From: an uncultured Mucilaginibacter sp.
GTDB taxonomy: Bacteria > Bacteroidota > Bacteroidia > Sphingobacteriales > Sphingobacteriaceae
Direction of reading: 5' to 3'
NCBI RefSeq assembly: GCF_937859865.1
Contig: NZ_CALMAT010000066.1
Location: 264-35,748 of the forward strand
DNA: 35,485 nt
The notes below the pieces were generated by a model. That model was not told where the DNA came from and made no database searches. It was given only the letters and a program-made list of their open reading frames with translations. The position numbers and the translations under genes are program-made. This document shows, one piece after another, positions 2,131-20,956 of this stretch; the first letter of the stretch is position 1; each line of letters starts with the position of its first letter.

Positions 2131-2155
2131 AATTTTTATCCGATAAAAGAAGCAT
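2131..2155 (+). repeat. Short dispersed element supplying the nadD start codon
   Basis: AATTTTTATCCGATAAAAG then AAGCAT. The final AT of the element plus the next G form the ATG of nadD, so the gene boundary is made from the element. Confidence 0.75.
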
Positions 2156-7241: not shown

Positions 7242-7269
7242 AATGCTTCTTTTATCGAGGTAAAATTAG
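7242..7269 (-). repeat. Short dispersed element at a convergent junction
   Basis: Plus strand AATGCTTCTTTTATCG, AGG, TAAAATTAG. It lies just before a family-3 inverted repeat. Confidence 0.7.
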
Positions 7270-7275
7270 TGTTTT

Positions 7276-7354
7276 GTCATTTCGACAGAAGGGAGAAATT
7301 TTCTTCAAAGTTGGTTGTTTGTTGAAAAAGGATCTCTCTTATCGTCGAGATGAC
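7276..7354. repeat. Family-3 inverted repeat (GTCATTTCGAC type)
   Basis: Outer arms GTCATTTCGAC (7276-7286) and GTCGAGATGAC (7344-7354) pair with one mismatch, and the interior carries GGGAGAAATTTTC against GATCTCTC. The same kind of dyad is at 17129-17244. It fills the gap between two convergent genes. Confidence 0.75.
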
Positions 7355-17120: not shown

Positions 17121-17128
17121 GTTTTTGC

Positions 17129-17244
17129 CATTTTGACCGAAGGGAGAAATCTTCTTCAAGTATTGCTTACCAATTTTTACCCGATAAAAGAAGCATTAGA
17201 AAATAACTTCAGTAAGAAGAAGATTTCTTCCTTCGGTCGAAATG
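17129..17244. repeat. Family-3 inverted repeat with a nested dispersed element
   Basis: Arms 17129-17157 and 17216-17244 pair at 27 of 29 positions (for example CCGAAGGGAGAAATCTTCTT on the left). The 58-base loop contains a full short dispersed element at 17172-17199. It lies between the convergent ABC exporter and usp genes. Confidence 0.85.
17172..17199 (+). repeat. Short dispersed element inside the family-3 loop
   Basis: AATTTTTACCCGATAAAAG then AAGCATTAG, close to the consensus. Confidence 0.8.
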
Positions 17245-17269
17245 ACAACGTATTTTCAAACATCCCAAC

Positions 17270-17293
17270 TACTTCTTTTATCGCCTAAAATTA
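17270..17293 (-). repeat. Short dispersed element overlapping the usp stop codon
   Basis: Plus strand TACTTCTTTTATCGCC then TAAAATTA; the last three bases are the complement of the usp TAA. Confidence 0.7.
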
Positions 17294-17764
17294 TTTCTCC
17301 TTTAAAGGAACAACCAGCACCGGGATTTCCGAATGGCGCGAAACATCTTCGGCAACGCTGCCGGAAAGCAAACGGTTAAAACCGCTGCGGCCGTGCGAGC
17401 CAACCACAATCAAATCTGCATTAAATTTGATGGCGGTATCAATTAAGACGGTTGCCGCATCACCGTTTTCCAAAAACTGTGTGATGTTATGCTCTTCACC
17501 GTACATCGCCACAAAACGCTGCATTACAGTTTTGGCCGATGATTCCTGTGCGTCTATTATTTCCATTGGCGGTAATGTCGTGTTTAACATGTCCATTTCC
17601 CCGCCTACCAGTCCCGAATTTACCGGCGCAATCATGATCGGTTCTACCACTTCTACCAAACCAACTGCTGCGCCAAGCGATTTGGCCAAAGCAAACCCGT
17701 AAGCGGCTGCTTTTTCGGATTGCCGGCTGTCATCAATCCCAATTAATATCTTTCTAAATTCCAT
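17291..17764 (-). CDS. Universal stress protein (UspA family)
   Basis: A single-domain, 157-residue UspA-fold protein. It begins FRKILIGIDDSRQSEKAAAY, with the Asp that binds adenine, and ends with the ATP-binding motif VVGSHGRSGFNRLLSGSVAE (G-2x-G-9x-G-S), then IPVLVVPL. Such proteins usually bind ATP and form dimers in the cytosol; the process is unknown. It lies alone, convergent with the ABC exporter and divergent from ilvE. Confidence 0.93.
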   Translation of the reverse strand: MEFRKILIGIDDSRQSEKAAAYGFALAKSLGAAVGLVEVVEPIMIAPVNSGLVGGEMDMLNTTLPPMEIIDAQESSAKTVMQRFVAMYGEEHNITQFLENGDAATVLIDTAIKFNADLIVVGSHGRSGFNRLLSGSVAEDVSRHSEIPVLVVPLKEK

Positions 17765-17805
17765 AAGCTGTGCATTTATAATACATAGATAAGATTTTTA
17801 GGCGA

Positions 17806-17831
17806 AATTTTTAGTGCTAAAAGAAGCATTG
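17806..17831 (+). repeat. Short dispersed element in the usp/ilvE divergent gap
   Basis: AATTTTTAGTGC then TAAAAGAAGCATTG. A second GATTTTTAGG half lies just before it (17793-17802). Confidence 0.7.
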
Positions 17832-17921
17832 AAACACGTTCCTTCAACTCCGTTCCCCGCTCCTCAAAAAACAAACAAAAAATTGTAAATTGCAGGCGGT
17901 AACAATTCAATTTTAAGCATC

Positions 17922-18989
17922 ATGGTTTCAGATACGCTCGACATACAAATCAGCAAAGCAGCAACTTCCCGTTTATCCACAATCAATTTTGAAAATTTAG
18001 TTTTCGGAAAATCCTTTAGCGACCACATGTTGGTGGCCGATTATGCCGATGGCCAATGGCAAAACTTCCAGATTTTGCCTTATGGCGAAATGATGATGAG
18101 CCCGGCCATGTCTGTTTTGCATTATGGGCAAACTTTTTTTGAAGGGTTAAAAGCCTACAAATTAGCTGATGGCCGCGTTTCTATTTTCCGCCCTAATAAA
18201 AATGCTGAGCGTTTTAACAAATCTGCCGAGCGTTTGTGCATGCCGCAACTGCCCGAAGATTTGTTTATACAAAGCATTGCCGCACTGGTAGAAGTTGACC
18301 AGCAGTTTATCCCAAACAAAGCAAACCATTCGCTGTACATCCGTCCGTTTATGTTTGCTACCGAAGCTGCTTTGGGCGTTCACCCTTCTTCCACCTATCG
18401 GTTTTGTGTGCTAACTTGTCCGGTTGGCCCGTTTTTCTCTAAAAATTTAAAGGTTAAGGTGGAGACCGAATTCTCCCGTGCCTGCGATGGCGGGTTTGGG
18501 TTTGCCAAAGCCGCAGGCAATTATGCAGGCTCGATGTTGCCGGCAAAAAAAGCAGCGGAAGAAGGTTTTGACCAGTTGATCTGGACGGATTCGCGCGAAC
18601 ATGTGTATGTGGAAGAGCTGGGCGCGGCAAACATTGTTTTTGTGATAGACGGAAAAATGGTAACGCCATCAACCCGCGATACCATTTTAAAAGGCGTAAC
18701 CCGCGATTCGATTTTAGCATTGGCCCGCAGTTGGAACGTGCCGGTGGAAGAACGCCGCGTTGCCGTAACCGAAGTTTTGGAAGGCATAAAAAACGGAAAA
18801 TTGACCGAAGCTTTTGGTGTTGGCACGGCCGCAACCATTACTTCTATTGTTGAAATTGGTTTTAACGGAGAAATTTTCGCATTGCCCAATCCGGCAAAAG
18901 GCGAATTTGCACCTAAACTGCGCCGTGTTTTGGACGACATTAAATACGGCCGAACCGAAGATTTAAACAACTGGAATTATATCGTATAA
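17922..18989 (+). CDS. ilvE: Branched-chain amino acid aminotransferase
   Basis: IlvE catalyses the last step of Leu, Ile and Val synthesis or the first of their breakdown, using PLP (fold type IV). 355 residues, typical of the long BCAT class. Motifs in order: LPYGEMMMSPAMSVLHYGQT with FFEGLKAYK; NKSAERLCMPQLP; LYIRPFMFATE; FAKAAGNYAGSMLPAKKAAE with the Schiff-base lysine in FAKAAGNY; and EELGAANIVFVIDG; plus TKGVTR-like ILKGVTRDSILALA. The TAA stop is the TAA of a dispersed element. No other biosynthetic genes are nearby. Confidence 0.95.
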   Translation: MVSDTLDIQISKAATSRLSTINFENLVFGKSFSDHMLVADYADGQWQNFQILPYGEMMMSPAMSVLHYGQTFFEGLKAYKLADGRVSIFRPNKNAERFNKSAERLCMPQLPEDLFIQSIAALVEVDQQFIPNKANHSLYIRPFMFATEAALGVHPSSTYRFCVLTCPVGPFFSKNLKVKVETEFSRACDGGFGFAKAAGNYAGSMLPAKKAAEEGFDQLIWTDSREHVYVEELGAANIVFVIDGKMVTPSTRDTILKGVTRDSILALARSWNVPVEERRVAVTEVLEGIKNGKLTEAFGVGTAATITSIVEIGFNGEIFALPNPAKGEFAPKLRRVLDDIKYGRTEDLNNWNYIV

Positions 18990-19000
18990 AAGAAGCATTG
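18975..19000 (+). repeat. Short dispersed element providing the ilvE stop
   Basis: AATTATATCG then TATAAAAGAAGCATTG; the TAA at 18987-18989 is the stop codon of ilvE. Confidence 0.65.
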
Positions 19001-19023
19001 CAATAACGGCTTGCGAATAGTCA

Positions 19024-19120
19024 GTCATTCTGAACTCGTTTCACAATCTATCAGGACATTGATTTTATGCCGATAAAAGAAGTACCAATCACGAGGTATC
19101 CTGAACAAGTTTAGGATGAC
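19024..19120. repeat. GTCATTCTGAAC-type inverted repeat with a nested element
   Basis: Left arm GTCATTCTGAACTCGTTTCA (19024-19043) and right arm ending AAGTTTAGGATGAC (19120) pair imperfectly. The loop contains a short dispersed element at 19061-19086. Located between convergent ilvE and the AsmA-like gene. Confidence 0.8.
19061..19086 (+). repeat. Short dispersed element inside the 19024-19120 loop
   Basis: GATTTTATGCCG then ATAAAAGAAGTACC. Confidence 0.75.
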
Positions 19121-19135
19121 AAGAACCTAACTATT

Positions 19136-20956
19136 TCATCCCCGTGCTTCTTTTATCGCCCTTTTTTTGATGCGCTTTAACCGGCGCATTTTTCTTTTCT
19201 CCTGGCGTTCGGCTTTTTGCGCAACCCGTTCCTGCTTGTTCTGCTTGTAGTCGGCCGCTTTTTGCCGCAGGTTTTGTTCGATCTCTGCCGATAAACCAAT
19301 GGATTCTTTGATGCCAGCATAAACCGAACGCCAGAGCAAACCCAAATAAGAACTATTTTCGGGCCGTTGATAAACCACATTGGCCACGCGGACAGAATCG
19401 TTAAACCGCGGATTGTCCCGGATCAGCACAAAAGCATTGGCCAAAATTGAAACGAAAGGCATTTTTTTAAGGCTGCTTTTTTCGTCCTTCCGCAACAGCA
19501 TCACATTCAAATCATGGTACAAAAACGTAACCTTGCCCGTCGCTTTTTTGGCGTTGGTCTGCATGTCAAAATTTAACGCAGTTACAATGCCGTTTGTAAA
19601 TTGGATCAAGCCCAATGGTTTGGTGGCCGGGTTCAGGTTCACCAAATTCATTGATTTTAAGTTTCCTTTGTAAAACAACGTATTGGAAGTATCTGCCGGA
19701 TCAAATTGCAGCCGCAGATCCAGCTTGCCGTAACCCATCAAATATGTGGAAAAATCTGCCGTTAACTTTCTATTCGTTTGCCCGATGGTGTCTTCGCCAG
19801 CAACAATATTGCTGATCTTACCGCTTAACTTTCCAAACGTAATGGCACCGCGCAATTTGGTTTTGGCATTGATTTCCGTGTAAACCACATCCAAATCATA
19901 AATGCGCACAGTTTTAATATTCATTGTTCGATGCACGTTTTTAAGCAGTGCATACAAACCGCTTTTCGAAAAATCCGTTGGCTTTCTGGGCAAAGTTCCG
20001 TTGAAAAAAACTTCGGCTTTGTTTCCGTAAACGTTGATATCCGCAGCAATAAATTTGCGGTAACTGATAAAGTTGTGGTAATCAAAACGGTTAATGACTA
20101 CCGAATCCGTTATCAAATTAACACTTCGGCGTGCCAAAACTTCATTTGCTGTTGCTGATTTTATAGGCATAAAAACAGCATCGGCAATTTTAACGCTGGC
20201 TTTTTCGCTCGAAAATGTAAGCGAATTGGCGCGGTACTGGTACAAACCATTTGCCGTAACCCCATGATAATTGTGGAACACGGCCGTAATATCTTTAAAA
20301 AAATTAAACCTTGTTTTGTCAGTTTGACTGGAAGAATCTATCAGCAAATCCGTTCCGGTAACGTCAACATCTTTTAAACGGGTAATTTTGGTTTGGTTGT
20401 TCAGATCTTCCTGGTACAGCAAATCAATATTCGTAAACAACAACTGCCCGATATGAACGCTTTTTAAAGAACCGGAAATGCGTTGGTAGAACGTTTTTTT
20501 GCCGCTGTCGGGCAAATCGTGGTTGCGCACTTGTCGGTAAATAATTTTAAGCGAAGGGTTTTTTAGTTCGATGGCATTGATAACCAATTGATTTTTAAAA
20601 TACAAATCATACGGATGGACGTGTTTCAACACAATCTTATCAACCGATAAATTGTATAAATTATTTGGCGCCGTGCCTGCTTTTTTTAGGCGGTCATAAA
20701 CAGCAAGGTCAGGTTTTAGCGTGAGGTGGTCAATCACGATAAAACCGGGAAGCACATGCAAACTGCTGTTGGCAAAATCAATTTGGTACAAACCGTTGCT
20801 CAGCTTAAAAACCGTGCTTTTTAACCGGGTTGAAAGGACCGGAGAGAAATAAATGTTTAAAATCAAACCGATCAGCAGTATCAAAAACAGCAAAGCCAGC
20901 AAGGGCCAGCCAATTCTTTTAAACCACTTGTTACCAATCAAATTTTTAAACGTCAT
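19136..20956 (-). CDS. AsmA-like inner-membrane-anchored protein
   Basis: A 606-residue protein with one N-terminal membrane helix (about residues 16-36, WPLLALLFLILLIGLIL) and a long periplasmic beta-rich region. The overall form (short cytosolic start, one helix, then IDFANSSLHVLPGFIVIDHL-type strands and a late GLIQFTNGIVTALNFDMQTN segment) resembles AsmA/DUF748 proteins thought to act in lipid transport to the outer membrane. That family call is inference from pattern. The last 40 residues are strongly basic and coiled (QNKQERVAQKAERQEKRKMR). The final IKEARG and the stop come from a dispersed element. Another copy (20157-20185) lies in frame and encodes DAVFMPIKSA. Confidence 0.7.
   Translation of the reverse strand: MTFKNLIGNKWFKRIGWPLLALLFLILLIGLILNIYFSPVLSTRLKSTVFKLSNGLYQIDFANSSLHVLPGFIVIDHLTLKPDLAVYDRLKKAGTAPNNLYNLSVDKIVLKHVHPYDLYFKNQLVINAIELKNPSLKIIYRQVRNHDLPDSGKKTFYQRISGSLKSVHIGQLLFTNIDLLYQEDLNNQTKITRLKDVDVTGTDLLIDSSSQTDKTRFNFFKDITAVFHNYHGVTANGLYQYRANSLTFSSEKASVKIADAVFMPIKSATANEVLARRSVNLITDSVVINRFDYHNFISYRKFIAADINVYGNKAEVFFNGTLPRKPTDFSKSGLYALLKNVHRTMNIKTVRIYDLDVVYTEINAKTKLRGAITFGKLSGKISNIVAGEDTIGQTNRKLTADFSTYLMGYGKLDLRLQFDPADTSNTLFYKGNLKSMNLVNLNPATKPLGLIQFTNGIVTALNFDMQTNAKKATGKVTFLYHDLNVMLLRKDEKSSLKKMPFVSILANAFVLIRDNPRFNDSVRVANVVYQRPENSSYLGLLWRSVYAGIKESIGLSAEIEQNLRQKAADYKQNKQERVAQKAERQEKRKMRRLKRIKKRAIKEARG
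19143..19161 (-). repeat. Short dispersed element forming the C-terminus of the AsmA-like protein
   Basis: Minus strand GGGCGATAAAAGAAGCACG, read in frame as RAIKEAR directly before the Gly-stop. Confidence 0.6.
20157..20185 (+). repeat. Short dispersed element inside the AsmA-like gene
   Basis: Plus strand GATTTTATAGGC then ATAAAAACAGCATCGGC; the gene reads the opposite strand as ADAVFMPIKSA. It closely matches the intergenic copy at 14647-14675. Confidence 0.6.

Follow-up and report, generated by a model that had tools for sequence, protein, structure and literature searches.

Palindromes and short elements in the window

The window, a stretch of 35,485 nucleotides on contig C66 of the genome of an uncultured Mucilaginibacter sp. 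(G000, 3.98 Mb), carries, among others, guanylate-kinase-like and cytidylyltransferase-like genes, an ABC-transporter gene, a universal-stress gene and a branched-chain aminotransferase-like gene, and it holds two kinds of large inverted repeat together with copies of a short element (Table 1). The first-pass annotation had described dyads at 17 and 19 kb with different arms and with the short element in the loop, and both points are confirmed: the palindromes belong to two distinct families, type A (17125-17248 and 7276-7354) and type B (19024-19120), whose arm patterns are expected 0 times in shuffled sequence, and the loops enclose elements with cores at 17185-17196 and 19074-19085. Specifically, the element in the 17 kb loop comprises an A/T tract (17173-17178), a spacer and the core TAAAAGAAGCAT. 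The 17 kb dyad folds with -49.9 kcal/mol vs -19.4 for shuffles (z -9.5), and the 19 kb dyad is weaker (z -3.3). The dyad at 7276-7354 does have an adjoining element, as had been noted, but it is not a third kind of dyad, being of the same family as the one at 17 kb.

Table 1. Palindromes and short elements located in the window (G001 and G002 are two sister species of the genus).
Feature	Position	Strand	Remarks
Type A palindrome, left arm TTGCCATTTTGACCGAAGGGAGAAATCTTCTTC	17125..17157	+	91% complementary to right arm
Type A palindrome, right arm	17216..17248	-	33-nt arms, 58 nt between arms
Short element in loop of 17 kb dyad	17173..17196	+	Loop of the orthologous place in G001 also has an element
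Type B palindrome, left arm GTCATTCTGAACTCGTTTC...	19024..19050	+	Arm pattern match
Type B palindrome, right arm	19094..19120	-	Arm pattern match
Short element in loop of 19 kb dyad	19062..19085	+	A/T tract, spacer, core TAAAAGAAGTAC 19074-19085
Type A palindrome, 23-nt loop without element	7276..7354	.	Fold z -6.2; orthologues in G001 and G002
Short element beside the 7276 palindrome	7243..7266	-	Core 7243-7254, 21 nt outside the dyad
Element at 3' end of branched-chain aminotransferase-like gene	18975..18998	+	Core 18987-18998; TAA of the core supplies the stop codon
Element after type B palindrome	19144..19167	-	Core 19144-19155
Element between universal-stress gene and aminotransferase	17806..17829	+	Core 17818-17829; conserved in G001 and G002
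Element between guanylate-kinase-like and cytidylyltransferase-like genes	2132..2155	+	Core 2144-2155; conserved in G001 and G002

A loopless, near-perfect inverted repeat (28 bp, 96% complementary) lies at 1482-1537, and a search of the window against Rfam at the gathering threshold matched no known RNA family. At the core 2144-2155, the last AT lies in the ATG of the cytidylyltransferase-like gene (2154-2726), and 6 of 291 cores in G000 give the TAA stop of a gene.

Census of the dyads

Among named organisms, G000 is closest to Mucilaginibacter arboris HMF7410 (aminotransferase 88% identical); this strain is G001, since a 21-kb stretch is identical letter for letter. Type A arms within 3 mismatches number 30 in G000, with 24 type A arms in G001 and 70 in G002; type B arms number 9 in G000 at the same threshold and, with a looser pattern, 13 in G000, 16 in G001 and 123 in G002, the far greater number in G002 being a recent expansion. 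In the same genome, type B palindromes form a tandem array of ~1.1 kb (L236, C1:370252-371952). Dyads were collected from the surroundings of the arms among the matches listed for G000 and G001 and, in G002, of nearly all type A arms (C13:26743 left out) and a minority of type B arms; loci L032, L042 and L044, duplicates of stretches already included, were left out of both dyad counts.

This yielded 92 dyads with two correctly arranged arms in the three genomes, against 0 in ten shuffled-arm controls. The element, in either form, sits in 14 of the 92 loops: 5/19 of type A and 1/6 of type B in G000, 2/10 and 1/10 in G001, and 4/29 and 1/18 in G002 (looser thresholds gave 22 type A dyads in G000, 6 of them with the element, instead of the final 19 and 5). 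From the element density in the flanking 80 bp on either side, 16.6 such loops are predicted, so the element shows no preference for loops, and the preferential insertion into dyads that had been proposed finds no support; the remaining 78 dyads lack the element, and its position within the loop shows no preferred site. In 79 loci (1.39 Mb) of other Sphingobacteriaceae, palindromes of types A and B are rare and none has the element.

The dyads are ordinary REP/MITE-like repeats in which the element has the same density as in the adjoining DNA, and its presence in loops of more than one dyad type is a side effect of two dense repeats that occur independently of each other. Like REP/REPIN sequences and short MITEs, dyads A and B are intergenic and palindromic, occur in tens of copies and two families and, in G002, in tandem arrays; they differ from these in that the four Y1_Tnp loci (3.2-3.3 kb) contain no dyad, their best arm having at least 8 mismatches, and a RAYT as mover of the dyads was rejected on this ground. 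The important object is the short element rather than the larger palindromes.

Orthologous places of the composites

The composites are mostly fixed in place. 3' of the ABC-transporter gene, the element occupies the loop of a type A palindrome in both G000 and G001; the palindrome of G002 at this place is of type B and has an element in the opposite orientation. 3' of the aminotransferase, a type B palindrome occurs in G000, where it contains the element, and in G002, where its loop shows no consensus element; G001 lacks a palindrome there and has an inverted pair of elements. The element at the 3' end of this gene is kept at the same place in G002, and in G001 a core lies just past the stop. 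The 7.2 kb palindrome is present in all three species, with the adjoining element in the GA form in G000 and G001 and in the AC form in G002. A further composite is orthologous between G001 and G002 (L176/L222).

One pair departs from this picture: the dyad at 19024-19120 and G001 L187:301-398 are type B composites with common loop junctions (CATTG...CAATC) and unmatched flanks, and their junction score is 20 against a null maximum of 19, in 1 of 91 pairs. The suggestion that the composites are mobile as units is therefore mostly unsupported, given the orthology of the 17 kb composite, the 7 kb dyad and L176/L222, and this single pair is what remains suggestive of it. That palindrome and element travel jointly as one unit is very improbable in general, because most palindromes (78/92) lack the element, thousands of elements stand alone, and the composites at the ABC-transporter place and at L176/L222 are orthologous and have not moved.

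Form, abundance and placement of the short element

The element is bipartite and orientation-free, consisting of an A/T tract, ~6 nt, and then TAAAA(GA/AC)AGYAY. Aligned copies show an invariant core, nothing conserved more than ~4 nt beyond it, and the A/T tract ~6 nt upstream; in G000, for the GA or AC form, the tract spans -12 to -7 and A/T reaches 96-100% at -10 to -8. A 13-mer with up to 2 mismatches has 28 matches in the window vs 1.9 expected (0 of 100 shuffles reach 28), and the refined 12-mer has 35 copies vs 0.07 per shuffle. At the whole-genome level, the three members of the genus contain 2114, 1947 and 1118 copies of TAAAAGAAGCAT, vs 0-12 per genome in 396 further genomes of the family; for the pattern GATAAAAGAAGC the counts are 732, 906 and 516, vs 0-5 per genome in 57 others, of which 23 belong to other families of the class. 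Sampling of 415,685 bases of G000, 180 kb of G001, 200 kb of G002 and 1.39 Mb of relatives gave 292, 104, 88 and 4 copies of TAAAAGAAGYAY, and 93, 40, 57 and 9 of TAAAAACAGYAY, both with the same A/T tract. The two forms of the 12-mer together make 385 copies, or ~1.1% of the bases sampled in G000. A viral origin was set aside, as one strict pattern, TTTTANNNGATAAAAGAAGCAT, has 0 matches in viral contigs, and the output of a pooled k-mer search for other words in the 79 loci of relatives was dominated by the shared query gene.

Placement was derived from simple ORF calls, so the following figures are approximate. In G000, copies of the GA form are ~15 times as frequent per Mb outside genes (4101) as inside (274), and about a third of the copies (94/291) lie inside genes, in any orientation. 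Copies are densest between convergent genes (62 in 9.2 kb, 6.7/kb), intermediate between co-directional genes (102 in 26 kb) and sparsest between divergent genes (28 in 12 kb, 2.3/kb). Orientation is independent of transcription, with sense/antisense counts in G000, G001 and G002 of 48/54, 19/14 and 21/18 between co-directional genes and 49/45, 22/15 and 14/14 inside genes, and both strands are used equally, with no bias along 8 contig stretches (binomial p 0.07-1.0). Close pairs are mostly inverted (46/61 in G000, 12/16 in G001 and 8/9 in G002), an arrangement that could form terminators like those of DUS/USS. An RNA-level signal, as part of a transcription terminator or attenuator, would fit the enrichment between convergent genes and the frequent inverted pairs, but sense and antisense copies are equally frequent, and about a third of all copies fall within genes, whichever the strand, which makes it highly unlikely, and it is disfavoured.

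Maintenance of the element as DNA

Across six directed comparisons of syntenic stretches, counted in blastn alignments that leave out unaligned intergenic DNA, interior sites of either form are kept in 22/25, 19/25, 55/69, 55/69, 22/26 and 19/22 cases, that is 76-88%, whereas identity holds for 12-13% of all 12-mers and for 14-27% of those with a similar composition. An exchange between GA and AC at one orthologous site is seen 2, 2 and 6 times in the three pairs of genomes, and losses of orthologous elements occur mostly by substitution. Maintenance extends to coding DNA: in codon-level alignments with an unchanged covering peptide, the 12-mer of the element is identical as DNA in 27 of 33 windows and still a consensus element in 30 of 33, vs identical DNA in 16,948 of 83,661 control windows (20.3%; p 6e-14). 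The 33 windows are not fully independent, because part of the G000 sites enter the comparison with each of the two relatives. The element is therefore a genus-specific, bipartite, orientation-free site that is maintained as DNA at orthologous places. Since a genus-specific site of 12 bp is kept at thousands of orthologous places, some recogniser is needed, even if its role differs from the one proposed below.

Loop length and alternative explanations

The loops of the dyads show an oddity of length. Those with an element have a median of 54.5 nt, and all 14 exceed 38 nt, vs a median of 29 nt for empty loops, of which 75 of 78 measure at most 38 nt and 3 are longer (Mann-Whitney, p 9e-9). Subtraction of 24 nt brings 13 of the 14 to 19-40 nt, in most rows close to the empty length, and the element stands at variable positions inside the loop. 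Because loops with the element are ~25 nt longer than empty ones, it seems to enter them as a whole unit; the earlier suggestion of insertion thus finds support for loops, without the preference for dyads. Insertion is not the general rule, since extra copies elsewhere bring no unit of length in the median: orthologous intergenic regions with one extra copy differ by a median of 3.5 nt (8 pairs; 0 nt for the 7 that come from G001/G002), and the intergenic cases listed include near-matches at the same spot. In a regression of intergenic length on copy number, the slopes are set by a few long regions, and unit insertion is not evident.

That the element is a mobile, MITE-like sequence of 24-30 bp multiplying by insertion, with palindrome loops as one entry place, would explain the length of the loops; we regard it as improbable, because about a third of copies fall within genes, whatever their orientation, elements missing from orthologous sites have mostly been lost by substitution, synonymous sites are maintained, intergenic regions with an additional copy are not longer by a unit in the median, and the one strict pattern had no match in viral contigs. 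The main rival is a binding site of a nucleoid, repair or recombination protein of the genus (Chi-like, KOPS-like) with no role in uptake, which all data for a maintained DNA-level site fit equally. Chi- and KOPS-like sites are strand-biased, however, and the 8 contig stretches show no bias of orientation; moreover, thousands of copies of a 12-mer with an A/T tract, few at divergent promoters and confined to a single genus, are unusual for such sites, and we judge this rival to be rather unlikely.

A putative DNA-uptake signal

The best reading of the element is a putative DNA-uptake signal, the first known to us in Bacteroidota. On balance, it probably represents a sequence-specific recognition site that works like the DNA uptake sequences of Neisseriaceae (DUS) and Pasteurellaceae (USS); we infer a receptor for DNA uptake as the recogniser, and biased uptake as the force that keeps the sites. 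In such a mechanism, a surface or periplasmic DNA receptor of the Mucilaginibacter lineage would prefer DNA with the A/T tract, ~6 nt and TAAAA(GA/AC)AGYAY; fragments bearing this word would be taken up and recombined more often, and copies would pile up and persist where the genome tolerates them, namely in intergenic DNA, terminators, palindrome loops and some codons. The match to the description of DUS/USS comes from the strict core with its A/T tract, the thousands of copies in one clade and the two exchanging forms, as well as from the lack of an orientation rule, the enrichment in permissive DNA, the inverted pairs and the DNA-level maintenance in genes.

According to passages of PMC3630211, DUS occupancy in N. 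meningitidis and N. gonorrhoeae is ~1%, and the DUS shares with the Mucilaginibacter word a length of 12 nt, this occupancy, genus-specific dialects, two co-existing forms, intergenic enrichment and inverted pairs such as those at DUS terminators. The two differ in that their sequences are unrelated and the Mucilaginibacter word has an extra A/T tract, a host in Bacteroidota and no PilB-type ATPase above the cut-off. The USS of Pasteurellaceae, as outlined in part of PMC12616744, likewise joins a strict short core to a spaced AT-rich segment over ~24-32 nt in total; its AT segments lie downstream of the core, whereas the Mucilaginibacter word as written has one upstream tract (the choice of strand is arbitrary), and the two cores are unrelated. 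The same source, in the portion concerned, states that DUS/USS are known in two proteobacterial families only, and the open-licence literature yielded no report of such a word for Bacteroidota, Flavobacteri-, Sphingobacteri- or Mucilaginibacter. Within Bacteroidota, Riemerella columbina likewise discriminates for its own DNA, and the k-mer search described in the relevant passages returned A/T-rich k-mers only and no comparable word (PMC7965970).

As to the machinery, ComEC and DprA are found in 3/3 genomes of the genus. Both are widespread in non-competent bacteria, and ComEC does not explain the genus specificity, since 35 of 37 relatives have it. In none of G000, G001 and G002 does a type IV pilus ATPase of the PilB type (PF00437) reach the cut-off, so that the machinery of DUS/USS seems to be absent; a type IV pilus as a genus-specific feature was accordingly rejected, since, contrary to expectation, the genus lacks PF00437 and some relatives have it. 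Uptake without a PilB-type ATPase nevertheless has room, because natural transformation occurs in Bacteroidota: R. anatipestifer is competent and requires ComEC, DprA, ComF, RecA and genes of unknown function (PMC8459023). The lengthening of the loops by ~25 nt counts against the uptake reading, since the gradual mutation model (PMC1939737) does not predict it. The longest element-free stretch examined (G001:C45:15167-27040, L130/L131; 11.9 kb) carries alternative complex III and cytochrome oxidase genes, and a second one, in G002, signalling and FAD genes; as the longest is a respiratory operon, the idea that element-free stretches are foreign DNA was dropped, and this hallmark of uptake sequences was not confirmed.

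A more specific version of the uptake reading, offered tentatively as possible though doubtful, is that the element might be a third, independently evolved uptake signal, in Bacteroidota, without a type IV pilus ATPase and with two interchangeable core forms, which would spread both by substitution and as whole 24-nt units, perhaps via the uptake of short, degraded DNA bearing the word. If the uptake reading is true, an independent case in Bacteroidota, in which no PilB-type ATPase was found above the cut-off, would mean that preference for self-DNA evolves repeatedly and via different receptors, and the genus would offer a known DNA ligand with which to fish out the uptake receptor of a pilus-poor competence system.
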